A stretch of 51,466 nt of DNA from NCBI GenBank assembly GCA_016788905.1, contig JAEURZ010000016.1, forward strand, positions 1-51,466, written 5' to 3'. The notes under the pieces were generated by a model. The model was not told the DNA's origin. It searched no databases and was given only the letters and a program-made list of their open reading frames with translations. Shown one piece after another: positions 1,007 through 15,054 of this stretch. Both the position numbers and the translations under genes were made by a program. Each line of letters begins with the position of its first letter. Positions within the stretch are counted from its first letter, which is position 1. This stretch comes from Elusimicrobiota bacterium. Lineage in GTDB: Bacteria; Elusimicrobiota; Elusimicrobia; FEN-1173.

Positions 1007-3259
1007 ATGAGACCAAGTAATTTGTCCATTAAAATAGGCACTGTTATTTTTCTCCTCTGGACAACGTGCGGGGTCCAGGGAGCGCCGACATGGGTGTCAT
1101 CAAACGTCCCTTCCTCAGGAAATCATCTCCACCCTTTAGGTGTTGACACGGACAACGAGGGGGAACTCTTGACCACATTCTATAGTTTTCAACTGCCTAG
1201 CCTACATATCGTATTTTCAGCCTCCACAAAAAATGGGGAATGGGAAGCAGGAGAACGCTCTCTTCAAAGGACCAGTTACGAAAACTATTCCCCAGACCGA
1301 CTTGCCTGCTTTGATCATCAAGGGACCCCTCACGTTGTTCTGGTCCATACCTCAGAAATCGAATACGCAACAAAGAGTGGCGGAGCTTGGACCCGGGAAC
1401 ACGCCGCGACGTCAGTATTCTCCGCAGGAATTGCCATCGCCTTAGATGGTCTCGACAATCCCCACATTGCTTATGTTGAAGCATTAGGCGGGGTGGATTC
1501 CCTTTACCACGGCGTTCGTCAATCAGGAGTGTGGACTTTTGAAGTTGTAGCCGTAAATCCGCACGCCCCTTTGTTTCAACAGAATAAGGTGACGATGGAT
1601 GTGGATTCTTCTGGTTCCCCCATCATCGCCGCTTTTTCCAACCCTGTTCGCGTTTTCTCCCGAACCAATAACACTTGGGGAGAAATAAAATCATTCCCCT
1701 CACCCTGGGGCCAACCGACACTGCGGGTCGATCAAATGGGGAGAACCCACCATATCCTTTCTTCTACCGCGACCGCGCACGCCCGCTATCTTCGTTGGGA
1801 TAGCGGAGGGAACGTGGAATGGGACCAAACGATGGAGATGACCGGAATGATTTCCCTTGGAGAAAAAACAGATATGGTTATTGACAACGCGAACCAAGCC
1901 CATTCGCTCGTTGGCAAAATTTCGATCGATCCCTCCGGCTCATTCACTCCACTCCCCAACCCCGTCTCAATTAATGCATTAAAACTTGCCCTGGTGAAAA
2001 ACCAGTTTCCGTTCTATGTGGTGGCTACTGGTCAAGCAAGTCCTCTCGTTGTCCTTTCCACATGCATAGGCGGCCCCCCCAGCCAGGCGCAAGTGGTGGC
2101 CCGGTCAACCAACAGCCTGACCTGGTCCTTTTCTCCTTCCACGGGAGCGGTGTTGGGGCACCGCCTTGTCAGGACATCGGATGGGGGAGACATTTCTGGC
2201 CTCCTGAACCCCGGCATATCTATTTTCACAGAAACAGGAATGGCTCCCAACCAATCCAGCCAGATCATTGTCCAGGCGGTCTTTCCCGGAATGATCCAAG
2301 AATCCGCCTCTGGGTCCACAGGATATTCCCTGACTGTTTCACCTCAGAACTTTCAACTGACTCGCTTGTCGGGAAATAGCCTCTCCGCCCATTGGGAGTC
2401 TGGAGGTAATATTTCCGGTACCGTCTACCGACTGAGACTAACACCTCCCCAGGGGGATGGCGTCACTTCTGAGACGACCTTGCAGTCTGCGCAACAAATC
2501 GTGGACCCTGCGATTCCTTACGCCGTGACCCTGGCCGCGATGAACGGGAATGGTTTTGAAACTTTTCTCTCCACCTTGTCTCGCGCCGCTCAAGACAGCG
2601 CGGGGCCATCCTTCTCTTTCGAAATACCTGGAGGGATTGGGGTGGACATCTCACTCGTGGGACCAGGTTCGGGTCCCCAATTGGCGCTCGCGGTCATTTC
2701 AGCTGATGAATTGCCCACGGCTCCTTCAAGTTTTGGTGATTACACACCCACCGGCGTTGGATTTAATATTCCCACGAACCAGGCCGTTCCTCTTGGACAA
2801 ACAGTGAACCTGACTTTACGATACCCCGAAAATACCATCAGACCTTCGGACACAGTGATCCTCGCCCGATACGATTCCGATCGGCATCAATGGGTCCCCC
2901 TCTCCACCCAATGGGATACGACGGCACGAACGATGACCGCCCCCACCCGGGCCTTGGGTCTTTTTCAAGTGATGCTTCAAGGGGCACCCCCTGCCGATGT
3001 GAAAGGGACCAGGGTATACCCCAATCCCTTCCGCCCCACACTTCATGGGGCGATGGCGATTCAAGAGGTCCCCGCCGGAACCCGCGTTCAAATTTGGAGC
3101 GACGGGGGGCGATTGGTGCGGGAATTTGTGACCCAGGGAGGAAACGCCACTTGGGACGGCCGAGACGCCGATGGTGTTTTAGCTCACAGTGGTGTTTACC
3201 TTCTGCGCCTCGAACGAAACGGTGAAACGAAACGGGTTCGGTTCATTTTGGAACGATGA
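1007..3259 (+). CDS. Secreted beta-propeller-like protein with FN3-like and FlgD-Ig-like C-terminal domain
   Basis: This 750-residue protein begins with a signal peptide (about residues 1-26, cleavage near VQG-AP). The ATG at 1007 is preferred because GGAGG lies six bases upstream; longer in-frame starts lack this. Residues about 30-400 contain repeated short motifs of the type GTPHVVLV, DNPHIAYV and GSPIIAAF, as in BNR/sialidase-like propellers. A fibronectin-III-like segment (about 470-560) and a beta domain (about 565-665) follow. The last 85 residues form a FlgD-Ig-like domain starting at VYPNPFRP and ending SGVYLLRLE, the same layout as C-terminal sorting domains of secreted proteins. 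It overlaps the next gene by four bases (ATGA), so the two are probably co-translated. Substrate and role are unknown; it is likely a surface or secreted protein. Confidence 0.75.
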   Translation: MRPSNLSIKIGTVIFLLWTTCGVQGAPTWVSSNVPSSGNHLHPLGVDTDNEGELLTTFYSFQLPSLHIVFSASTKNGEWEAGERSLQRTSYENYSPDRLACFDHQGTPHVVLVHTSEIEYATKSGGAWTREHAATSVFSAGIAIALDGLDNPHIAYVEALGGVDSLYHGVRQSGVWTFEVVAVNPHAPLFQQNKVTMDVDSSGSPIIAAFSNPVRVFSRTNNTWGEIKSFPSPWGQPTLRVDQMGRTHHILSSTATAHARYLRWDSGGNVEWDQTMEMTGMISLGEKTDMVIDNANQAHSLVGKISIDPSGSFTPLPNPVSINALKLALVKNQFPFYVVATGQASPLVVLSTCIGGPPSQAQVVARSTNSLTWSFSPSTGAVLGHRLVRTSDGGDISGLLNPGISIFTETGMAPNQSSQIIVQAVFPGMIQESASGSTGYSLTVSPQNFQLTRLSGNSLSAHWESGGNISGTVYRLRLTPPQGDGVTSETTLQSAQQIVDPAIPYAVTLAAMNGNGFETFLSTLSRAAQDSAGPSFSFEIPGGIGVDISLVGPGSGPQLALAVISADELPTAPSSFGDYTPTGVGFNIPTNQAVPLGQTVNLTLRYPENTIRPSDTVILARYDSDRHQWVPLSTQWDTTARTMTAPTRALGLFQVMLQGAPPADVKGTRVYPNPFRPTLHGAMAIQEVPAGTRVQIWSDGGRLVREFVTQGGNATWDGRDADGVLAHSGVYLLRLERNGETKRVRFILER

Positions 3260-4353
3260 AACCCCTGAACCTTTTCATGTTGCTTTGTGTTTTTGCTGTT
3301 GCATCTCTTCACGCCAAAGGACGGGCCTCGGTGGTTGGTGAATTTCTGACAATTCCCTTCGGCGAACGGGCTGTTGGAATGGGAGAAACGGGAGCGGCCC
3401 TCCCAGAAGACGCCTCAGGTCTTTTTTGGAACCCCGCCACGTTGGTGAGGGCTCCCCGAACTTCGTTAGTCATTGGCCGGGTTCCCTACGCGGAGGGGGC
3501 CGCCCAGAACCACTTTCTGGTTTCCCGGGCGGTGGGCGCAGGAGTGTTTGGGGCAGGGTACGGTTCGTTCAGCCACGGAACGATCGAAGGCTCAGACTTG
3601 GATGGATTTCCTACCAACACACTAAAACCATTGGACTCCCAAATAGCCCTGGGATACGCCCGCTATTTCCCCGCTGTCCCCTTTCTGGCCGGACACATCT
3701 GGGGCGTGTCAGGAAAATATATTTATTCCCGTTTGGAGAACACCGCAAAAACCTACACCTGGGACGTAGGAATCCTTTCCCCTGCCTATTGGAAAAACCG
3801 CCTGCGATGGGGCGCCTCTTCCGTGAACAACGGGGGGGCGCTTCAATACAACGACGACCGGGAGGCCCTTCCCCGAACAACCCGTGTGGGAGCTGTTTGG
3901 ACTCCGCTGAACCGTTGGGTCGCCGCGACCGATTTGGTCAAAGGGACCGATGAACCTCTTGCGGTCTCGGCCGGGGTGGAATACGGGGCGCCGCTCACGT
4001 CTTCCCTCACGTTCTTCACACGCGCCGGATACACAACAACCCACGAATCCCTGGATGGCCTGCGATTGGGGTTTGGCCTGGGAATGAAAAACCTGCGTGT
4101 GGACTATTCCTTCCGCTTCAACGAAAACGAGACGGCGACCCATGGGTTGGGGCTGACACTGGAATGGGATGAGCGGAAAAAAGGGCTTCCCCCTGCGCTT
4201 CAAGCCAAAATTGACCGGGGAAATAAACTCGTCGAAACGGGCCAGTACCCCGAGGCCGTTTTAACATTTCACGACGCCATTAAAACCGATTCCCGTTGCC
4301 AAGAAGCGCGGGACGGTTTGGAGCGAGCCTACCGGCTCATGCAAGGGCGATGA
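3256..4353 (+). CDS. PorV/PorQ-like outer membrane beta-barrel with C-terminal TPR-like tail
   Basis: The protein has 365 residues. After a signal peptide (about 1-20) comes the typical start of the PorV/PorQ family: a short FLTIPFGERAVGMGET stretch, then SGLFWNPATL. The rest of the first 300 residues consists of alternating strands expected of a small barrel related to FadL. Residues about 315-365 look like a single TPR-type helix pair (QYPEAVLTFHDAIK). In type IX secretion PorV escorts cargo with C-terminal domains at the outer membrane, and here the gene directly follows such a cargo-like gene with a 4-base overlap. Similarity to the second PorV-like protein at 8304-9251 is visible, for example ILSPAYW versus VLSPGYW. 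The escort role is an inference. Confidence 0.78.
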   Translation: MKPLNLFMLLCVFAVASLHAKGRASVVGEFLTIPFGERAVGMGETGAALPEDASGLFWNPATLVRAPRTSLVIGRVPYAEGAAQNHFLVSRAVGAGVFGAGYGSFSHGTIEGSDLDGFPTNTLKPLDSQIALGYARYFPAVPFLAGHIWGVSGKYIYSRLENTAKTYTWDVGILSPAYWKNRLRWGASSVNNGGALQYNDDREALPRTTRVGAVWTPLNRWVAATDLVKGTDEPLAVSAGVEYGAPLTSSLTFFTRAGYTTTHESLDGLRLGFGLGMKNLRVDYSFRFNENETATHGLGLTLEWDERKKGLPPALQAKIDRGNKLVETGQYPEAVLTFHDAIKTDSRCQEARDGLERAYRLMQGR

Positions 4354-5747
4354 GACACGCTAAAATCATACTGGGGTTCGTGTTCATCACCCCATTCCTC
4401 TGTGGCGCTACAGCTCCAGTGGCCAAGGAGTATCGCGAAGCGGTTATGCTCTATCGCAAAGGAGAGTTTGTTCAAGCGCAGAAAAAGTTTAACGCCATTA
4501 AAACGGACCACCCCAACTATCGCAAAACCACCGCCTATTTGGTTCGATGCCGTGAACGCATTGATCGAGATGGCCCCACCGTCGCTTATTACGAGCGCGC
4601 CGCCAGTGAAGCCCGGGACATCCTCAACCAGCGACAAACAATCCTCACTCTTGTGAAAAGTCGGTATTCCGCGGTAACCATTCAAGAAAAGGATGGGGCC
4701 ATCGCTTTTTCGCTCCCCCCGGAATACATGTTCCCTGGTATCGGCAACGATTTCTCCGCTTCAGGGACAGCGTTCCTTGGATTGGTCAAGGATCTGGCCC
4801 TCACGTATCGAAGCCTTTATATGGTGATATTTTCTGAACAGCCGGACACCGCACAAAAAGACGCTAAGCGGCGCGGGGAACGGCGGGCGGTCGCGTTGGG
4901 GTCCTTCTTTTTTCGGCAGGGAGGGGTCCCTCCCCAAAACATAAAAATCCGGTCCAGGCCCGGAAAAAATGCTTCTATTCGACTCGAACTCCACACCAGC
5001 GCCCCAAACCCGTCGGATAAAGAAATCGCCATTCGTGGTGCCATGGCCGAAGTCGCCGATCCCGTCATCGACCCAGAAAAGGATTGGCCTTTGAGCATCG
5101 ATCTTTCCCTTTTGGATCCTGCGCGGGTAAAATCCTGGTCCCTTAAAATCATAGAATCCGAGCGCGGCGCATTGGTCCGGGAGTTCAAAGGAACATCGGA
5201 TGTTTGGGTGTCCCTCCAATGGGATGGGATGGACGAACGTGGCCGAAGGGCTCTCCCCGGTGAATACCAGGCCTTCTTGAGCGCCACGACATTGAACAGA
5301 GAACGCCTGGAAGACAGCACCGCCTTCATGATCCGTTCTCCCAAGACAAAGTATACCCGGTCGAGAACACCACAGGCGCCTGTCATTGAACCACCCCCGC
5401 CCCCCCTTCCCCCGCAAACACGGAAGTGGTCCCATTTGATCCGATTTTCTTTTAACCAGGCCGATTTGGCCGGAACCGGGGGTCTCGAGGTCAAACAACT
5501 GGCCCAAAGCGTTAGAGCGTTCCCGGACGAGGGCGTGGTGATTGAAGGATTTGCCGACCTCAAGGAAGAAAACACGGACACTCTGGCCCGCCGTCGGGCC
5601 GAAAAAATCCGTTCCCTTCTCATCGAAAAACACGGTATCCCAGCCCATCGGCTCACCGTTCGCGCAAAAGAACCACGCCATGCCCTGGAAGGAGAATCCC
5701 TCCACAAATGCGTGGTGTTCTTTGTGGAAACGGAGAAGGCGCCATGA
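4350..5747 (+). CDS. OmpA-domain protein with TPR-like N-terminus and FlgD-like middle domain
   Basis: The start at 4350 overlaps the preceding stop (ATGA) and begins a signal peptide (RHAKIILGFVFITPFLCG). The 465-residue product has a TPR-like helical segment (about 25-90), a long central part, a FlgD-Ig-like beta unit around 245-330 (WDGMDERGRRALPGEY), a proline-rich hinge (PPPPPLPPQ), and a C-terminal OmpA-like domain (about 365-460) with the motif LARRRAEKIRSLLIEKHGI. OmpA domains bind peptidoglycan, so the protein probably anchors an envelope complex. In type IX systems PorE combines TPR and OmpA parts, a comparable but not identical design. It sits between the PorV-like gene and the kinase gene with overlaps on both sides. 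Confidence 0.75.
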   Translation: MRHAKIILGFVFITPFLCGATAPVAKEYREAVMLYRKGEFVQAQKKFNAIKTDHPNYRKTTAYLVRCRERIDRDGPTVAYYERAASEARDILNQRQTILTLVKSRYSAVTIQEKDGAIAFSLPPEYMFPGIGNDFSASGTAFLGLVKDLALTYRSLYMVIFSEQPDTAQKDAKRRGERRAVALGSFFFRQGGVPPQNIKIRSRPGKNASIRLELHTSAPNPSDKEIAIRGAMAEVADPVIDPEKDWPLSIDLSLLDPARVKSWSLKIIESERGALVREFKGTSDVWVSLQWDGMDERGRRALPGEYQAFLSATTLNRERLEDSTAFMIRSPKTKYTRSRTPQAPVIEPPPPPLPPQTRKWSHLIRFSFNQADLAGTGGLEVKQLAQSVRAFPDEGVVIEGFADLKEENTDTLARRRAEKIRSLLIEKHGIPAHRLTVRAKEPRHALEGESLHKCVVFFVETEKAP

Positions 5748-7417
5748 AACTGACGGTTAAATTTATTGGGGTGACCCTGGTGGCCTCCCTGGTCCCGCTG
5801 ACATGGGTGGGAATCCGGGTCGTACGCGAAACAGAATCCTCTCTCCGGGCCAGTACCGAACGACTTCAACGGGGTCTGGCCGAACGGACCGCGGAAGCCG
5901 CGAAAACCCAGATGGATGGTGCGGTGAACCTGCTTACCCTCGCCGCTCGAAACATCGATGGAAATCGGCCAGGGACGGCCGCCCTCGAGCCCCTCCTCAA
6001 CAACTACCCCATCCTCATGGATCTCTGGGTTTACGACGCCAAGGGTCAGCCGCGGGCCAATCTGCATCGGTTGGGCCCCGCCCCGGGAATTCCACCGAAG
6101 ATGTGGGGCGCCGTGCGGAAAGAAATTCAAGAACGCGGTTATTTTTCGGGCCCCTGGGAAACTCCCAAAGGAACCGCCCCGCGTCGGCTTATTGCCGTGC
6201 CCCGCGTGGATTCGTCCCTCCGCACGGTGGGCTACGTGGTCGCTCGCATCAACCTTTACGTGCTCAGCGAATCCTTGCAAGGCCTTGACCTGGGGACGGA
6301 AGGACAGGCCTACTTGATCACGAAAAAAGGCGATTTGTTGGCCCATTCCCTTTCGGAAAACATTTTCAGATCAGGGTTTACCCCTCCGCCCGATTGGATT
6401 TCAACCGATTGGATCGATGGAGAACACAGGGACCCTGAGGGACAGCAGATTCTCGTGGCCCGTGCCCCCTTAGCAGAACAAGACGCCTGGGCCTTTTATC
6501 TCCAACCCATCGAAACCGCCTTGGCAACGGTAACGGCGCTCAAAAAAAGGATCCAGAGGTCCTTGCTCCTGGCCGCGGGATTCGCCGCGCTCTTGGCCTT
6601 GGGCCTGAGCGGGTTTATCACCCGCCCCCTGCGAAAATTTCTCTCCGCCGTTCGCGGAATGCAGGAAGGTCACTTTGACAGCCTGGTGGACGTTCGTTCA
6701 TCCGACGAATTGGGAGAGATCGCCCAGGCCATCCGGGACGCCCAGCCGGTTTTGGAAAAAAAAGTTCGAGATTCGGTCCTCGGGAAAATGTCTCGGCTTC
6801 TCAGCCACGACATGCGCCAACCCATCCAAGCGCTCCGGAACTCCCTGGACACCATCGTTCAACACGTGACCGGAGCTGACGACACCGCCCGACGTCATTT
6901 AACACTCAGCGGAGAAGCGCTGGATTGGATGGACGATTTTATTGAGGACATCTTAACAGTGGGACGGGAACGGCCCCTCGTTCCACGGCGCATGGATCTA
7001 GGACAAGTGGCACAAAACGTTTTGGCAAAATTGAAAATTCCGGACGGCATTGTCGTCACGAAACTTTTCGCCGCGAACTCTCCCCCGTGCTCCGTAGACG
7101 AAAAAGAAGTGCGGAAGGCTGTTGCCAACCTGATTAAGAATGCTTTCGAAGTGTTGGGGAACGCGGGACGTATTGAATTGACCACTCGGCCGGCCGAGGG
7201 AGGCGTTTCATTAACGATCAGCGATAACGGGCCGGGCATCCCGGAAGAGAAGAAGGCGAAACTTTTCGAAGAATTCACGACAAAAAGTTCGGGAACGGGA
7301 TTGGGGTTATTGGTGGTGAAACGTGTCATGGAACGGCACAACGGGAAAATCGAAATTGCCAGCGGGCCCCAGGGAACCCACGTCACGCTCTGGTTCCCTC
7401 TCTCTATTTCGGGTTGA
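5744..7417 (+). CDS. Membrane sensor histidine kinase (extracytoplasmic sensor, HAMP, HATPase)
   Basis: The ATG at 5744 overlaps the previous stop and has GGAGAAGG just upstream. The 557-residue protein has an N-terminal membrane helix (about 6-28), an extracytoplasmic dCACHE-like sensor (about 30-265), a second helix (about 270-292), a HAMP linker starting at ITRPLRKF, a phosphoacceptor helix with LSHDMRQP (histidine 355), and an ATPase domain with the N box NLIKNAFE, DNGPGIPEE and GTGLGLLVV. All catalytic motifs are intact. It is the last gene of the four-gene plus-strand run and converges, with a 14-base tail overlap, on a NarL-type regulator that is its likely partner. The signal is unknown; its position suggests it monitors the envelope or the secretion locus around it. 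Confidence 0.9.
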   Translation: MKLTVKFIGVTLVASLVPLTWVGIRVVRETESSLRASTERLQRGLAERTAEAAKTQMDGAVNLLTLAARNIDGNRPGTAALEPLLNNYPILMDLWVYDAKGQPRANLHRLGPAPGIPPKMWGAVRKEIQERGYFSGPWETPKGTAPRRLIAVPRVDSSLRTVGYVVARINLYVLSESLQGLDLGTEGQAYLITKKGDLLAHSLSENIFRSGFTPPPDWISTDWIDGEHRDPEGQQILVARAPLAEQDAWAFYLQPIETALATVTALKKRIQRSLLLAAGFAALLALGLSGFITRPLRKFLSAVRGMQEGHFDSLVDVRSSDELGEIAQAIRDAQPVLEKKVRDSVLGKMSRLLSHDMRQPIQALRNSLDTIVQHVTGADDTARRHLTLSGEALDWMDDFIEDILTVGRERPLVPRRMDLGQVAQNVLAKLKIPDGIVVTKLFAANSPPCSVDEKEVRKAVANLIKNAFEVLGNAGRIELTTRPAEGGVSLTISDNGPGIPEEKKAKLFEEFTTKSSGTGLGLLVVKRVMERHNGKIEIASGPQGTHVTLWFPLSISG

Positions 7418-8117
7418 GATCGGGCTCCGCGTCGTCGGCCGAAATCAAACCGTATTTCACCGCCAAACACACCGCGTGGCTTTGATTCTTGGCCCCGAGT
7501 TTCTCATAAATGTGTTCCAAATGTTTTCGGACCGTGCTTTCGGTCGGTCCGCCCCCTTTTTCTCCTAAATGGGTCGCAATTTCTTTCATCGTTAATCCCG
7601 AATGGGCCGCTAACTTCAGGACCTCCAGTTCCGCTCCGGTCAGTTTGGTAAACCCCGTATCCACTTCATCGTCATCGGCCCCCCGCACCGCTTGAAAAAG
7701 ACGACGACGGAGAGTGTCTTGCGGGGGCAACGAACCACCCAAAATCCGAAGCAAGTGCCCCACGACCGCAGCCGCGGTGGCGTCTTTCTTAAATAGATAA
7801 TCGTCGGCCCCCGCCCGAATCGCTTCCACCACATGGGACTGATCCTCATACATTGAGAAAACCACGACTTGGATCCCCGGGTTCGTGGCTTTAATTTTCC
7901 GCACCGTACTGACCCCATCCAACCGAGGCATCCCCAAATCCACCAGCGCGATATCGGGTTTATGCCGTTCCACCGCTTCAATGGCGGCCACGCCATCCCC
8001 CGCCTGGGCCACCACTTTCAGTTGGTCCGAACAATGGTCGTCGATAAAAGTCGCAATGGATTCCCGCATCAGGGGATGGTCATCCGCCAAAACAATTCGA
8101 TATGTTTTCTTATCCAT
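7404..8117 (-). CDS. NarL/LuxR-type response regulator
   Basis: The 237-residue product has a REC domain (about 5-125) with acidic pocket DD at 12-13 and phosphoacceptor aspartate 60, then a LuxR-type helix-turn-helix at about 165-235 (LTGAELEVLKL, STVRKHLEHIYEKLGA). A small insertion, GEKGGGP, lies in the loop of the helix-turn-helix. I chose the ATG at 8117 because the REC fold begins immediately; a GTG at 8150 would add 11 residues. A good -10 box (ATTGTA at 8174-8179, complement TACAAT) lies upstream, with a weak -35. The 3' end overlaps the sensor kinase gene by 14 bases tail to tail, so the pair is genetically linked without being an operon. Confidence 0.9.
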   Translation of the reverse strand: MDKKTYRIVLADDHPLMRESIATFIDDHCSDQLKVVAQAGDGVAAIEAVERHKPDIALVDLGMPRLDGVSTVRKIKATNPGIQVVVFSMYEDQSHVVEAIRAGADDYLFKKDATAAAVVGHLLRILGGSLPPQDTLRRRLFQAVRGADDDEVDTGFTKLTGAELEVLKLAAHSGLTMKEIATHLGEKGGGPTESTVRKHLEHIYEKLGAKNQSHAVCLAVKYGLISADDAEPDLNPK

Positions 8118-8247
8118 GGTCACCCCAAAAGTTCGAAACAGATCGTCCACCGGTCCCTCAATAGGACCAACTCATTGTATATTCCATTCGAAATAAATTC
8201 CATGTTATTTTATTTTCAAGTCGATAAAATTCGTGAAGGGGTATCGA

Positions 8248-8304
8248 GCGGTTTGCCCCGGGACCAGGCTGGGAGGAATCCTGGCCCCGGGAGAAGTCAA
8301 CCGC
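8248..8304 (-). terminator. Long hairpin behind the second PorV-like gene
   Basis: An outer stem GCGGTT (8248-8253) with AACCGC (8299-8304) encloses an inner stem CCCGGG-A-CCAGG (from 8257) with CCTGG-C-CCCGGG (8280-8291). It begins at the stop codon of the minus-strand PorV-like gene. No run of U follows on the minus strand, so it is either a weak intrinsic terminator or an mRNA-stabilising hairpin separating this gene from the regulator gene. Confidence 0.55.
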
Positions 8305-9251
8305 TAAAAGGAATAGCTGAGGGAGACCCGGTGGGCGTTCCCTAAATCGTCCACAGGGGAAAAGGCGTAATCAACGGTGAGGTGAGAATACTGTGCCCCA
8401 AACCCTACCGTGGTTCCCGCAAGAACGCCGAGGTCTTGACCCGTGGTCCCCGACCAACCGGCACGACCGATCAGGAGCCAGCCTGTCGTGGGAACCCAAT
8501 GTCCTTCGTTCCCAAGGGACAGCGTGGGAGAATCGTCCCGGGGAAACTTAAGGTCACAGGTCACGAGCCAAGGAAGAAGAGGGCGAAACGCCACACCCCC
8601 GCTTAGCTCTACCGGCAACGGATGGGACGCGTCAGCCAGTTTCAGTTTTCCCCCCAAATTGCGCGCCGCGACACCCCAATGGAACCGATCCGACCAATAC
8701 CCCGGGGAGAGGACACCCAAATCCACCGCGAACGTCGTGTCTGAGTGAACCACACGTGAAGTCACCATTTTTCCCGCCCCACCAAACGACCACTCTCGGA
8801 ATTCCCTTCCGTAACCCAGGCTGACCGCCCAATCGATAGGGTGAAAATTTCCGATCGGGGTACCATCGTAACTGTCCGTTTGGGTCAGGGTCCCCCCATC
8901 GAAGTACCGGAGCCCCACCCCGATCCCTCCCCCAAGAAAAGGTTGGGCGTAGATCCCATTGGAATAGGCGGTTTCATCCAGATAGGCGGAATGGCCCAAA
9001 GTGGCCTGACGTCCGGTGAGGGAAGCAAGCCCCGCGGGATTCCACGCAAGGGACGCGGCTTCCCCTTCCAAGGCTGTGACCGCTCCCCCCAACCCCGCGG
9101 CCCGAGCATTGACCGGAAGTTTCAGAAAGGGCGCCGCCGAAGTGCCCCGCGCCTCACGCGAGAAGGCCCCCCCGAAAGCGACTCCCCCGCAAAGAGTGAG
9201 GACGACCACCAGGATTGTCTCCTTCCCGTGCTTCAAAATAACCCCCATCAT
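8304..9251 (-). CDS. PorV/PorQ-like outer membrane beta-barrel protein (second copy)
   Basis: The 315-residue protein starts at 9251, where ATG overlaps the stop of the upstream gene (ATGA). A signal peptide (about 1-27, ending FGGAFS) is followed by the family start FLKLPVNARAAGLGGA and SLAWNPAGL, then alternating strands to a C-terminal aromatic residue (SLSYSF), as is common for barrels inserted by the BAM machinery. It lacks the TPR-like tail of the copy at 3256-4353. Its coupling to a large cargo-like protein (9248-11989) repeats the arrangement on the opposite strand. A role as a surface anchor or escort of that protein is inferred from PorV in type IX secretion; no other type IX components are seen in the window. 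Confidence 0.78.
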   Translation of the reverse strand: MMGVILKHGKETILVVVLTLCGGVAFGGAFSREARGTSAAPFLKLPVNARAAGLGGAVTALEGEAASLAWNPAGLASLTGRQATLGHSAYLDETAYSNGIYAQPFLGGGIGVGLRYFDGGTLTQTDSYDGTPIGNFHPIDWAVSLGYGREFREWSFGGAGKMVTSRVVHSDTTFAVDLGVLSPGYWSDRFHWGVAARNLGGKLKLADASHPLPVELSGGVAFRPLLPWLVTCDLKFPRDDSPTLSLGNEGHWVPTTGWLLIGRAGWSGTTGQDLGVLAGTTVGFGAQYSHLTVDYAFSPVDDLGNAHRVSLSYSF

Positions 9252-11989
9252 TCGACGCCCACTCGAATGTTCTTTTTCTGCCCATCTTTTTCGATGACGC
9301 CCAGATACACCCCGGGGGCAACCGCGCTCCCATGGGCGTTTCGCCCATCCCAACGGGTGACCCCTGCACTATCCGCTGGAGGGAGCTCACGAACCTGTTC
9401 ACCCGCCACGGTAAACAGTTTGACGTTTGATCCCACGGGGACATCGGTCATGTAAAACAAGGGGTCTCTCCCTGGGCGAAAAGGATTCGGAAAGGCCCTC
9501 ACGTCCGCCATTGAGTTTCCAGGAATGGACAACACCCCCGTGGCTCCATCAACAGGACTGGACTCCCCAGCGGGGCCAACGGCAATCAATCGACGGTAAT
9601 ATTGACCCCTTGGGCGGAGCCCCGTTTCCACGTAAGTCTCCGTATTGGCCGGAAGCTCGGCCAACAACGTGTAGGGCCCCAGGGCGGACTCCGCGCGATA
9701 AAACCGGTACCCCGTTTCATCATCAGCATTGTCGGTCCAGGTCCAACGCACGGTCTGGCGATCGAGAATCTCCGCTTTCAGATCACTGGGCCCCCAATCG
9801 CCGACCTTCATCGAATAGAGGGAAAAACCCCAAACGGTTCCAGACACTCCGCCCCGTTGATCTCCGTACATCCGGATCATCCGAGCTGTGGTGCGCGGGA
9901 ACCAAACCACATCGTCCCCACCATCCCCATTCGTCACGGTGGCGACCGTCGTCCAGACCACATTGTCGTCCGAGGTTTGGATCCGATAATCCTTTCCGTG
10001 CGCCGTTTCCCATTTCAAGCGAACATAGCTCAGGGGTGTGGGTTTTCCGAAATCCACCGCGAGCCATTGATCGTCAGACCAAACAGACTCCCAACGGGTG
10101 GCGGGATCATCGTCGAACGCGTTGACAGCCGGGTTGCCATTTTTTACGGAATAGGAAAAATATCGGGGACGTTCCCCTGTGGATACAAATCCGGCCCGAG
10201 CCAGAGCCGTTGCCACGATCGGATTTCGCGTGAACGATTCGCGAATAAGATTGGATCGATAATTTTCTATCGCCAGGATAATGGGACCGTTATCCAAACC
10301 CAGGGCATAGTCCGCCCGTTCGTTCGCGGACGTGCTGAACGAATCCGTAAACCCATGGCGCCCCCAGATGGCGTGTTTATACTGGAAAAACATCTTTCGG
10401 GCCGAAGCGATGGATTCCGTTGGCGTCATGGGGATCGACGCCAGCGGTCCCGTGGGGGCCGCCGTTCCGTCCCGGGTTCCGTCCGGGACACTCCCATACA
10501 CCTGGTAACCGTTGTTCTTTGTGTCACAAGCGGTCAATCCCCAAATATCGGGTTCATACCGGGAATCCGACGCGCACAAGGCGCGATCCCGCTGTGTGGC
10601 TTGTACCGCCGCGTCCCAATAGTCAGACACCCCGTCATTTTTGTTGCGGAAGTCATAATAAAGGTTGTGATACTGGTGGACAAACAAGGGGGGCAAGTGC
10701 ATAAACTCGTAGATCCCCCCTCCCGTGGCATTGGATCCGTGACGACGCATTTCCACCCAAGCCCGGGCTTCAATGGGATGAGTGGGGGACGCCAAGGCCA
10801 GAAGGTTTACGAAAACCGATTCCGCATACATATTCCACCAGGCCGGAATAAATGAACCTCGGTCCGGAGCCATTATTCCACCCGCCTCCGGGTTCCACCC
10901 CATTGAGATAAAGGGATTGTTTACCCCCCCCCGCTGAGTAAACCAATCCCATTCCATCGCCCGGTAGAGGGCATCCGCTTTTTGAGCAATCGTGGGGTCG
11001 GTGGTTCGAAAATATTCACCCGCTTGAAGTGCGCCCAAAATGAAGAGCGCGGAATCCACCGTGGAGACCTCCGAAGTATAATTCCGTTGACCACTGGTCC
11101 AGTCCACAAAGTGATACCACATGCCGTGGTAACTTCGTGCGGGGTCCAGCTGCATTTGCCGGAAAAAATCAAGCGTCCCCTGAACCCGCTGGCGAGCGGC
11201 TTCAGGAGAAATCCATCCTCGCTCTGCCGCGACGGTCAAAACACTTAGCCCAAATCCCGTGGTCGCAACGCTGGCGGTGGTAAAAGGCTGTTCCATCCAA
11301 TTTTTCGATTTATCACTGATCAACCCCGTTCCGGGCCCCGCCTCGTTCCAAAAGTACCAAAACATCTTCTTTTGAAGAAACCCCAATACGTCGTCATCCG
11401 AAACCGATTGAACTTTGATTTCAATACCCGATATAAAGGCACTGTCCGCCAAAACCTGAGGAAAGGTTAACTGGATACGCTCATTTGAAACACGGACTAA
11501 AAAGGTTTGGGCCCAAGGGATGGCTTGCCCCCCCGCCTGGGCAAAAACATCCAAATCCTCCAAAACCACTTGACCTTGCAGCGCCACATCAAAAACCCGG
11601 GCTCCGACACTGGTCCAGCGGGTCTCGGCGAAATGAAGGGTCACGCGGTAATCCCCATTGGGCAAATCCACTCGATAGCTCATTGAGGAATTCCCCCACC
11701 GGTGAGTGCGGTAGACTTCTGGGATGTCGGTCAAGGTGGGGGAGATGACCACCCCAGACCCCTCCGCGTCGAATGCGGTTCCCCCCGAAAAACCCCAGCG
11801 GTTGAGAGCGGAAAAATCTTCATCTTGAACCCAAAAATCGCCCCGCGGGTCGGTTAGGTCCCAACCTTCCGCCCCACAGTTGAGGCGAAAGACCTCTTCC
11901 CCGCTGGCCGACGATTTGGGCATGGCCCCATGGGACAAGCTCAACCCGAAAAAGAAGGAAACAACGAAACCCACGTGTTTTTTAATCAA
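9248..11989 (-). CDS. Secreted multidomain glycoside hydrolase: malectin, glycoamylase-like, F5/8-type C, FN3, FlgD-Ig-like
   Basis: The 913-residue protein has a signal peptide (about 1-21), a malectin-like domain (about 33-195), a catalytic domain of the glycoamylase-like family (about 205-620; hallmark pieces SVATTGFGLSVL, STVDSALFILGAL, WNMYAESVFVNLLAL, DYALGLDNGPIILAIENY), a discoidin/F5-8C domain (about 635-755, NAFDDDPATRWES), a fibronectin-III domain (about 765-850) and a FlgD-Ig-like C-terminus beginning AFPNPFRPG. The glycoamylase-like family (PF10091) includes GH144 beta-1,2-glucanases, so a glucan is a plausible but unproven substrate. Translation starts at a TTG at 11989 behind a G-rich ribosome site. 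A clear promoter lies at 12080-12109. It is coupled to the PorV-like gene and probably secreted. Confidence 0.82.
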   Translation of the reverse strand: MIKKHVGFVVSFFFGLSLSHGAMPKSSASGEEVFRLNCGAEGWDLTDPRGDFWVQDEDFSALNRWGFSGGTAFDAEGSGVVISPTLTDIPEVYRTHRWGNSSMSYRVDLPNGDYRVTLHFAETRWTSVGARVFDVALQGQVVLEDLDVFAQAGGQAIPWAQTFLVRVSNERIQLTFPQVLADSAFISGIEIKVQSVSDDDVLGFLQKKMFWYFWNEAGPGTGLISDKSKNWMEQPFTTASVATTGFGLSVLTVAAERGWISPEAARQRVQGTLDFFRQMQLDPARSYHGMWYHFVDWTSGQRNYTSEVSTVDSALFILGALQAGEYFRTTDPTIAQKADALYRAMEWDWFTQRGGVNNPFISMGWNPEAGGIMAPDRGSFIPAWWNMYAESVFVNLLALASPTHPIEARAWVEMRRHGSNATGGGIYEFMHLPPLFVHQYHNLYYDFRNKNDGVSDYWDAAVQATQRDRALCASDSRYEPDIWGLTACDTKNNGYQVYGSVPDGTRDGTAAPTGPLASIPMTPTESIASARKMFFQYKHAIWGRHGFTDSFSTSANERADYALGLDNGPIILAIENYRSNLIRESFTRNPIVATALARAGFVSTGERPRYFSYSVKNGNPAVNAFDDDPATRWESVWSDDQWLAVDFGKPTPLSYVRLKWETAHGKDYRIQTSDDNVVWTTVATVTNGDGGDDVVWFPRTTARMIRMYGDQRGGVSGTVWGFSLYSMKVGDWGPSDLKAEILDRQTVRWTWTDNADDETGYRFYRAESALGPYTLLAELPANTETYVETGLRPRGQYYRRLIAVGPAGESSPVDGATGVLSIPGNSMADVRAFPNPFRPGRDPLFYMTDVPVGSNVKLFTVAGEQVRELPPADSAGVTRWDGRNAHGSAVAPGVYLGVIEKDGQKKNIRVGVE

Positions 11990-13276: not shown

Positions 13277-14287
13277 TTGATTTCATTTGTACGCCTGGCG
13301 CTCCCCACCATCCTCCTCTTTTCAAGCTATCCCCTTTCCGCCGAAACCCCGAGCGAAGTGCCGTCTTTGGATCTTCCGGTTCACGTTCGACGGGGTTATG
13401 GATACACCCGCCCCCACCCGCTCGCGTTCATCACCCACCAGCCGTCCGACATGAAAATGGCCTGGCAAAGAACCTTTAAAAAAGAGAACATTCTCCCCCT
13501 CAGTCTCTTGGCCGCTGGGACAGGGGTCTTGATTGTCCTGGACCAATACCTTTTTGAGCGCACGTATAAGGCCGGAGACACACTGAACATCACCCACGAA
13601 AGCGAACAAAATACCCTAGCGGATATAACGCTTCCAGGTTCTTACAAAGTTCGACTGAATGGCCCCAACAACATCGGCACCGGGCTCTATTTCTTAGGGG
13701 ACGGGATCACCCACGCGGCGATTGCGGGAAGTTTTCTTACGGTCGGGTTGATGGCTTCGGACAATCGAGCCCTGCAGACCGCAAGTCAACTGGTCGAAGG
13801 CATCCTCGCCAACGGCATCGTGGTTCAACTCCTCAAACACACCACCGGCCGGGAAAACCCGAACACCGCCACCCAAACGGGAGGGAAATGGCAGTTTTTC
13901 CCCAACCAGAAGGATTACGCGAAACACGTAAATAAATATGACGCTTTTCCTTCTGGGCATCTCTCCACCGCAATGGTCACGGTGACGGTGATCTCCTCCA
14001 ACTACCCCGAATACAAATTCGTGCGCCCTCTGGGCTACACGTTGATGGGTGCTCTCTCTTTTCAAATGGTGAACAACGGGGTTCATTGGTACAGCGACTA
14101 CCCCTTGGCCATTGCCATGGGATGGATGTTCGGAAAAATCGCCGTGGACCGGGGACGATCAAAAACGGACGACTCGGCCTCACTCCCCTTCTTTATTGGA
14201 CCCACGACCATCGCGGGAAAACCCGGGTTGGCCCTCACATTTCCTTTTGGCGGACCTCCGTCAAAGAAGGCGCGGAGTCCCTTATGA
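13277..14287 (+). CDS. PAP2-family membrane phosphatase, motif-divergent
   Basis: This 336-residue protein has a signal peptide (about 1-23) from a TTG start at 13277, an extra N-terminal segment and a PAP2 core with several membrane helices. PAP2 enzymes dephosphorylate lipids such as undecaprenyl diphosphate or phosphatidic acid. Motif 2 (FPSGHLSTA) and the HxxxD of motif 3 (VHWYSD) are intact. In motif 1 the usual arginine-proline end is changed to asparagine-proline (KHTTGRENP), and the serine-arginine pair opening motif 3 appears to be replaced (QMVNNGVH). Activity may therefore be altered. It is coupled by a 4-base overlap to a second PAP2 gene whose motifs are canonical. No strong ribosome site is seen before the TTG, so the exact start is uncertain. 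Confidence 0.8.
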   Translation: MISFVRLALPTILLFSSYPLSAETPSEVPSLDLPVHVRRGYGYTRPHPLAFITHQPSDMKMAWQRTFKKENILPLSLLAAGTGVLIVLDQYLFERTYKAGDTLNITHESEQNTLADITLPGSYKVRLNGPNNIGTGLYFLGDGITHAAIAGSFLTVGLMASDNRALQTASQLVEGILANGIVVQLLKHTTGRENPNTATQTGGKWQFFPNQKDYAKHVNKYDAFPSGHLSTAMVTVTVISSNYPEYKFVRPLGYTLMGALSFQMVNNGVHWYSDYPLAIAMGWMFGKIAVDRGRSKTDDSASLPFFIGPTTIAGKPGLALTFPFGGPPSKKARSPL

Positions 14288-15054
14288 AGAAACGCTTACT
14301 TGGACGATACTTCCTCACGGGAATCCTCCCCGGTCTCATCACGGGACCTCTTTTCGCCATGGAAAACACCCCACCTTCTCCTCGGCCTTCCTGGATGATC
14401 CCCGCCGCCATCACGGGAGGCCTTTTAGCGGTGGCCTTTTCTCTCGACTCTGAGATTCATCATCGAATGATGAAATCTTCGAAAGGAGAACTGGGCAATT
14501 TTTTGGATGGACCTGAATTCGGACAACCCAACGGGCGGTTGGACTTCCTGGGTCGACCGGAATTCGTGGTGGTGTCATCGGGACTTTTATATGGCGGAGG
14601 AACTTGGGCCGGGTCCGATCGGACAAAACGATTCGCCGTAACACTAACTAAAGCAACGTTGGTTAGCGGGGTCGCTGTTCTCGGGGTCAAATTCATTGCG
14701 GGCCGGGAACGCCCCACACCTGAGAACGACCCCGACACGTTCCATTTCTTCCAGGGGTCATCCAAAGAAAACGTATCCTTTCCGTCAGGACACACGGCCA
14801 CCGCTTTTTCTTGGGCGGCTGCAACAACGGAAGAATATCCTTCCCTTTGGGTGGCCGCCATGGCTTACGGGACCGCGGGGCTCGTGGGGTTCAGCCGATC
14901 CTACCAACACCGACATTGGACCAGCGATGTGGTGGCCGGGGCGGCGCTGGGTTATTTCACGGGGAAAGCCGTGGCCCGGTCGGAGAAAAAGAAAGGGTTA
15001 TTGAAGGGTCTCTATTCCGACGGTCGGGGACTTTACTGGCGGCGAGAATTTTAA
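14284..15054 (+). CDS. PAP2-family phosphatase, canonical motifs
   Basis: The 256-residue protein starts at the ATG that overlaps the stop of the previous gene. It has an N-terminal hydrophobic segment (signal anchor or signal peptide) and a PAP2 domain with all three motifs: KFIAGRERP, FPSGHTATA and SRSYQHRHWTSD. It should be a membrane-bound lipid phosphatase with its active site facing the periplasm; likely substrates are undecaprenyl diphosphate, lipid A or phosphatidyl-glycerol phosphate, which sequence alone cannot resolve. The gene is translationally coupled to its divergent paralogue upstream. Its 3' end overlaps the minus-strand M48 peptidase gene by 57 bases, tail to tail. Confidence 0.88.
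   Translation: MKKRLLGRYFLTGILPGLITGPLFAMENTPPSPRPSWMIPAAITGGLLAVAFSLDSEIHHRMMKSSKGELGNFLDGPEFGQPNGRLDFLGRPEFVVVSSGLLYGGGTWAGSDRTKRFAVTLTKATLVSGVAVLGVKFIAGRERPTPENDPDTFHFFQGSSKENVSFPSGHTATAFSWAAATTEEYPSLWVAAMAYGTAGLVGFSRSYQHRHWTSDVVAGAALGYFTGKAVARSEKKKGLLKGLYSDGRGLYWRREF

Follow-up and report, generated by a model that had tools for sequence, protein, structure and literature searches.

The region 1007-11989 of the window (the whole stretch of 51,466 nucleotides analysed here, contig C16 of a 2.5-Mb Elusimicrobiota genome in 78 contigs, 99.85% complete) probably encodes two modules, each made of a cargo and its shuttle, that belong to a divergent type IX secretion system in which each cargo has a dedicated shuttle that probably also serves as its anchor. 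Recent reviews and surveys describe the type IX system as exclusive to Bacteroidota (PMC12618676, PMC4793230), and our literature search found no description of such a system in Elusimicrobiota.

Seven genes, all of them confirmed, are arranged in two convergent operons, P1-P2-P3-P4 on the plus strand and P7-P6-P5 on the minus strand (Table 1). ATGA start/stop overlaps join P1 to P2 (3256-3259), P2 to P3 (4350-4353), P3 to P4 (5744-5747) and, on the minus strand, P7 to P6 (9251-9248). P6 and P5 are separated by a gap of about 150 bases or more, P5 having an alternative ATG start at 8117, and the 3' ends of P4 and P5 overlap by 14 bases. The layout described in the earlier note, with two pairs of PorV-like genes and genes carrying a C-terminal sorting domain (CTD), four-base overlaps, a kinase and a NarL-type regulator, is borne out by the gene coordinates and by these four joints. 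The recurrence of this gene order in related genomes, which the same note had proposed to check, was not observed: the mirrored layout is not conserved and no orthologue of P3 was found in five other genomes of the same order, some of them incomplete. We therefore rejected the mirror as a conserved unit, and the head-on placing of the pairs is best explained as a chance feature of this locus. A scan of viral contigs with the regulator as query gave no match. Just outside the locus, at 13277-15054 of the window, a PAP2-superfamily phosphatase gene is overlapped by a second, similar-looking frame (14086-15054).

Table 1. Genes and C-terminal sorting domains of the locus (window coordinates).
Feature	Coordinates	Strand	Evidence
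P1, secreted cargo: signal peptide, fn3, C-terminal sorting domain	1007..3259	+	fn3 30.8 bits, FlgD_ig 16.7
CTD of P1, putative sorting/anchor signal	3014..3256	+	genome-wide CTD profile A1 79 bits; P1 in training set
P2, PorV/PorQ-family barrel, weak C-terminal TPR-like tail	3256..4353	+	NF033709 116 bits (cut-off 90)
P3, periplasmic OmpA protein, FlgD_ig-like domain (weak match)	4350..5747	+	OmpA 42.9 bits, E 6e-11
P4, dCache-HAMP-HisKA-HATPase sensor kinase	5744..7417	+	domain scan; ATGA overlap with P3
P5, NarL/LuxR-type response regulator	7404..8150	-	Response_reg + GerE; NarL 119.9 bits
P6, PorV/PorQ-family barrel, nearest PorQ model	8304..9251	-	NF033709 148 bits (cut-off 90), PorQ 104.6, PorV 56.6
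P7, secreted cargo: malectin, PF10091 glycoamylase, F5/8 type C, fn3, C-terminal sorting domain	9248..11989	-	domain scan (Glycoamylase E 8e-44, Malectin E 1e-24, F5_F8_type_C E 1e-18)
CTD of P7	9251..9493	-	profile A1 86 bits; P7 in training set

Both barrels exceed the cut-off of the family model NF033709, on which we predict P2 and P6 to be PorV-family shuttles, the PorV and PorQ equivalog cut-offs being missed by both. P2 scored 63 bits with the PorQ model and 51 with the PorV model, and its C-terminal tail matched TPR_2 at E 0.03; P6 matched the PorV structure 6h3i_F at E 3e-4. Neither protein matched PF11751 (PorP/SprF) in the Pfam scan. The preference for PorQ is shared by most barrels, 10 of the 12 scanned scoring PorQ over PorV and the remaining ones favouring PorV2 or matching the family model only. 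One further PorV-family gene (L038, G000:C3:41360-42181) contains a single in-frame TGA, which may reflect a defective gene copy or an error in sequencing.

Signal peptides are present on P1 and P7. The comparison of both tails with the Por_Secre_tail and FlgD_ig models, suggested in the earlier note, gave a split result: the P1 tail passed the TIGR04183 cut-off (24.1 against 23 bits), as did several other tails, and also matched FlgD_ig, whereas the P7 tail did not reach the TIGR04183 cut-off and matched FlgD_ig only weakly. With the PorZ-tail model the two scored 50 and 36 bits, respectively, and the PorZ CTD is the best fit for these tails and many others, with the equivalog cut-offs of barrels and tails not reached. 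The P7 tail is predicted to belong to the CTD family of the genome, as judged from profile A1, which was trained with P7 included. This CTD profile matches the solved CTDs of PorZ (5m11), PorU (6za2), RgpB and an SprA-bound cargo (8glj), and also FlgD. Both tails are thus candidate sorting domains of type A or B.

The earlier note described the locus as lacking Sov. This is true of the neighbourhood only, because a SprA homologue is encoded on contig C13 of the same genome and in most of the phylum. The Sov/SprA model search of the genome returned five weak collinear pieces in one frame of 1,818 codons, and the whole protein matched TIGR04189 with 140.5 bits (E 3.7e-41), under the equivalog cut-off of 200. 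A phmmer search of the PDB with the single SprA-like protein gave no match, whereas a profile built from 20 homologues of the phylum matched the Flavobacterium johnsoniae SprA structure (6h3i) in collinear segments at E 1.1e-32. The nearest of the SprA relatives identified by name, almost all from Elusimicrobia, comes from a fen isolate (PMLF01000076, 44% identity). An AF2 model of the fen-isolate homologue (1,180 residues, pLDDT 72) had four SprA structures as its best Foldseek matches, at E 2e-33 to 4e-49, the next match being at 1e-4. SprA homologues were found in 131 of 150 Elusimicrobiota genomes, and in 116 of the 124 of good quality. Profile and structural comparisons together point to a Sov/SprA-type translocon in this genome. 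Genes for a CTD-bearing M6 protease and for a further PorV-family protein are found near the C13 gene. An Elusimicrobiota-type SprA also occurs in a record named Clostridia bacterium (L148, WJOT01000031.1), probably as a binning error.

These results bear on a quite different explanation, in which the barrels would be nutrient-uptake transporters of the FadL/UPF0164 type and the tails plain FlgD-like Ig folds, the two being neighbours through polysaccharide use. Weak UPF0164 and FadL/TodX matches and the match of the CTD profile to FlgD agree with it. However, the PorV/PorQ subfamily cut-off is exceeded, the cargoes differ widely in chemistry (proteases, propellers, glycosidases) and a SprA translocon is present in the genome, and we regard this explanation as highly improbable.

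The cargo-shuttle reading is supported by the genome-wide pairing of CTD and barrel genes. The genome contains 24 PorV-family matches, corresponding to about 20 genes, and 27 CTD matches. Almost all barrel genes adjoin a CTD gene, which in most cases lies immediately upstream and overlaps the barrel gene by a few bases; barrel-first order occurs at four further loci (on C4, C15 and C13, and one on C3). With a strict definition of a pair (barrel at most 800 bases downstream of the CTD, on the same strand), 15 of 24 CTDs of this genome are followed by a barrel, against 0.09 expected by chance. Six relatives belonging to other families hold at least 9 (G123), 6 (G028), 10 (G037), 16 (G078), 14 (G012) and 12 (G104) strict pairs, with fewer than 0.5 expected in each; two relatives with small genomes had too few listed matches for pairing to be judged. 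The CTD profile was trained on CTDs of this genome, which inflates its own scores and leaves the counts of the relatives unaffected. Gene models placed a CTD gene next to 16 of the 19 barrel genes examined in this genome and to 22 of 27 in the relatives, the latter fraction being biased, since most of those regions were picked for holding pairs. CTD-PorV pairing is thus a rule of the phylum and not a local oddity. The dedicated barrel-cargo pairs proposed in the earlier note are supported well beyond one locus, and the contrary outcome that it had considered, that relatives never place PorV-like genes next to CTD genes, is contradicted by these six genomes. Two CTD-PorV-OmpA modules, L048 on C36 and L049 on C26, are near-duplicates whose barrels hardly differ; in one of them the cargo gene has shrunk to a short frame that fuses the head of the cargo to its tail.

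Barrels and CTDs also diverge together. Over 34 pairs, barrel distances correlated with CTD distances (Mantel r 0.63), a value never reached when partners were shuffled within genomes (p 0.0002); for this genome alone r was 0.41 (p 0.0016). This co-divergence fits co-evolving partners, although operon duplication alone, without any binding specificity, would give the same result. Pairing is not universal: unpaired CTDs exist, on C22 in this genome and in large numbers in some relatives, as in G012, where they number at least 50 among the 64 CTDs listed, so that some cargoes lack an adjacent shuttle. Such orphans would be expected if the barrels were type IX shuttles lacking specificity, any barrel carrying any CTD and the gene neighbourhood merely setting dosage, and in F. 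johnsoniae a single orphan SprF-like shuttle does serve three orphan cargoes (PMC12618676). We nevertheless consider shared carriers unlikely, because a genome would have no need of some twenty barrels, each diverging along with its CTD, if a single carrier sufficed.

For dedicated shuttles, the closest precedent is SprB-SprF of Flavobacterium. In F. johnsoniae, five operons combine a type B cargo with its SprF barrel and a homologue of PorE (PMC12618676), and P1-P2-P3 follow the same layout, but P3 is not a PorE according to the model. The PorE model NF052230 gave 14.6 bits against a cut-off of 600 and covered the OmpA part only, and a TPR scan of the N-terminus of P3 detected none. From the OmpA/TPR protein and PorE-like linker of the earlier note, the OmpA domain is thus retained, whereas the TPR part and the assignment to PorE are not. 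More generally, the modules resemble the pairs of type B adhesins and PorP/SprF barrels (SprB-SprF and Fjoh_3952-Fjoh_3951, with PorE in Flavobacterium and Porphyromonas) in having the cargo upstream of its own barrel, some OmpA-type anchors and SprA. They differ from them in that the barrels belong to the PorV/PorQ family, the tails are mostly of type A or PorZ-like, and pairing is general in the genome instead of being confined to a few cargoes. The PorZ-PorQ attachment complex offers another comparison, as PorQ is the type IX equivalog that the barrels fit best and the PorZ CTD matches many of the tails; in contrast to that complex, the cut-offs are not reached, PorZ's own domains are absent, no PorU was detected, and many cargoes stand in the place of PorZ.

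The PorZ CTD is kept uncleaved and bound to PorQ, and cognate PorV-like barrels have been proposed to protect CTDs from cleavage (PMC10202324). No catalytic region of the sortase PorU was detected in this genome: the PorU model NF033707 matched CTDs only, through its own CTD part (residues 983-1094), and a search with C25 (PF01364) gave no match, its positive controls also being blank. Given the lack of a detectable PorU sortase, the CTD probably remains attached to the protein and, by analogy, probably anchors each cargo to its own barrel. P1 and P7 would be taken into the periplasm by Sec and passed through the outer membrane by the SprA homologue encoded elsewhere. From gene adjacency and co-divergence, we infer that the barrel encoded right behind each cargo would then take the CTD from the translocon, P2 for P1 and P6 for P7. 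The uncleaved CTD would probably keep the cargo on its barrel at the cell surface, like PorZ on PorQ or SprB on SprF, and P3 probably fastens this complex, in the case of P1-P2, to peptidoglycan by means of its OmpA domain, a role like that of PorE towards PorP.

A Sov/SprA homologue, PorV-family barrels and Ig-like CTDs are shared with the canonical system of Bacteroidota. Unlike that system, in which one PorV serves all type A cargoes, this genome of the phylum Elusimicrobiota has about 20 barrels and no detected GldM or PorU. The search for GldM (TIGR03517 profile) gave no match in the genome at E <= 1, and was without an informative positive control. The reduced export or surface-attachment system suggested in the earlier note therefore holds in part, as neither GldM nor a PorU catalytic region was found in searches that lacked good positive controls, whereas Sov/SprA is present. 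Candidate energisers do exist. In L037:3513-15038 (G000:C10), genes for a CTD protein (1977 aa), a PorV-family barrel, a 1001 aa TPR protein, ExbB and ExbD all lie on the minus strand, and this ExbB-ExbD pair is a possible energiser. In L170:8656-17758 (G104:C40), and in similar arrangements in L171, L172, L173, L174 and L186, a protein of 490-650 aa with a FliG-like domain (FliG_M, FliG_C and TPR in L170) is encoded after a PorV-family gene. In three genomes the FliG-like protein is followed by a protein of 1,600-1,850 aa, and several other FliG_C matches in relatives lie a few kb from PorV or CTD matches. The FliG-like proteins next to PorV-family genes are possible rotor or motor parts. More tentatively, and with less confidence than we place in the two modules themselves, Elusimicrobiota may have a phylum-wide variant of the type IX system with neither sortase nor GldLM motor, in which one PorQ-like barrel per cargo would act as shuttle and permanent anchor, some modules would have their own kinase, and the system would be driven by a different energiser, either ExbBD or the FliG-like proteins.

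The occurrence of a SprA homologue in most Elusimicrobiota, alongside numerous pairs of barrel and cargo and with neither a sortase nor GldM detected, makes the phylum a natural comparison for how CTD matches shuttle, and bears likewise on the minimal machine for moving cargo through SprA. The type IX reading could be tested in cultured Elusimicrobiota from the gut.

The earlier note had placed the system under the control of an embedded sensor. Linkage to a histidine kinase (HK) does recur: CTD-PorV-TPR-HK-response regulator (RR) operons are found on C5 and C14, CTD-PorV(TPR)-HK-RR and HK-RR-PorV-CTD both occur on C3, and CTD-PorV(TPR)-HK-hybrid HK is found in two distant relatives, G037 and G104 (L188, L189). 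The link is recurrent and not general, most pairs having no kinase. The signal sensed by P4 is probably the module's state or substrate. P4 is a HisKA-type kinase and P5 a NarL-type regulator, and the regulators at two other HK-linked loci of the genome are of the OmpR type. P4 may be the cognate kinase of P5, but the HisKA and NarL classes usually have other partners and the two genes are convergent on opposite strands. Could the module be chiefly sensory, with P1 as a surface sensor signalling through P2 and P3 to P4, and export serving only to place the sensor outside? The recurrent kinase operons speak for such a role, but most pairs lack a kinase, HK-linked barrels and CTDs do not form significant sequence clusters (p 0.15 and 0.14, respectively), and here the kinase and regulator belong to separate operons, so that we give a sensory module little credence relative to two cargo-shuttle modules. 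At the end of one CTD-PorV-TPR-HK operon, a single frame combines a receiver and a methyltransferase domain (L039:3959-5353).
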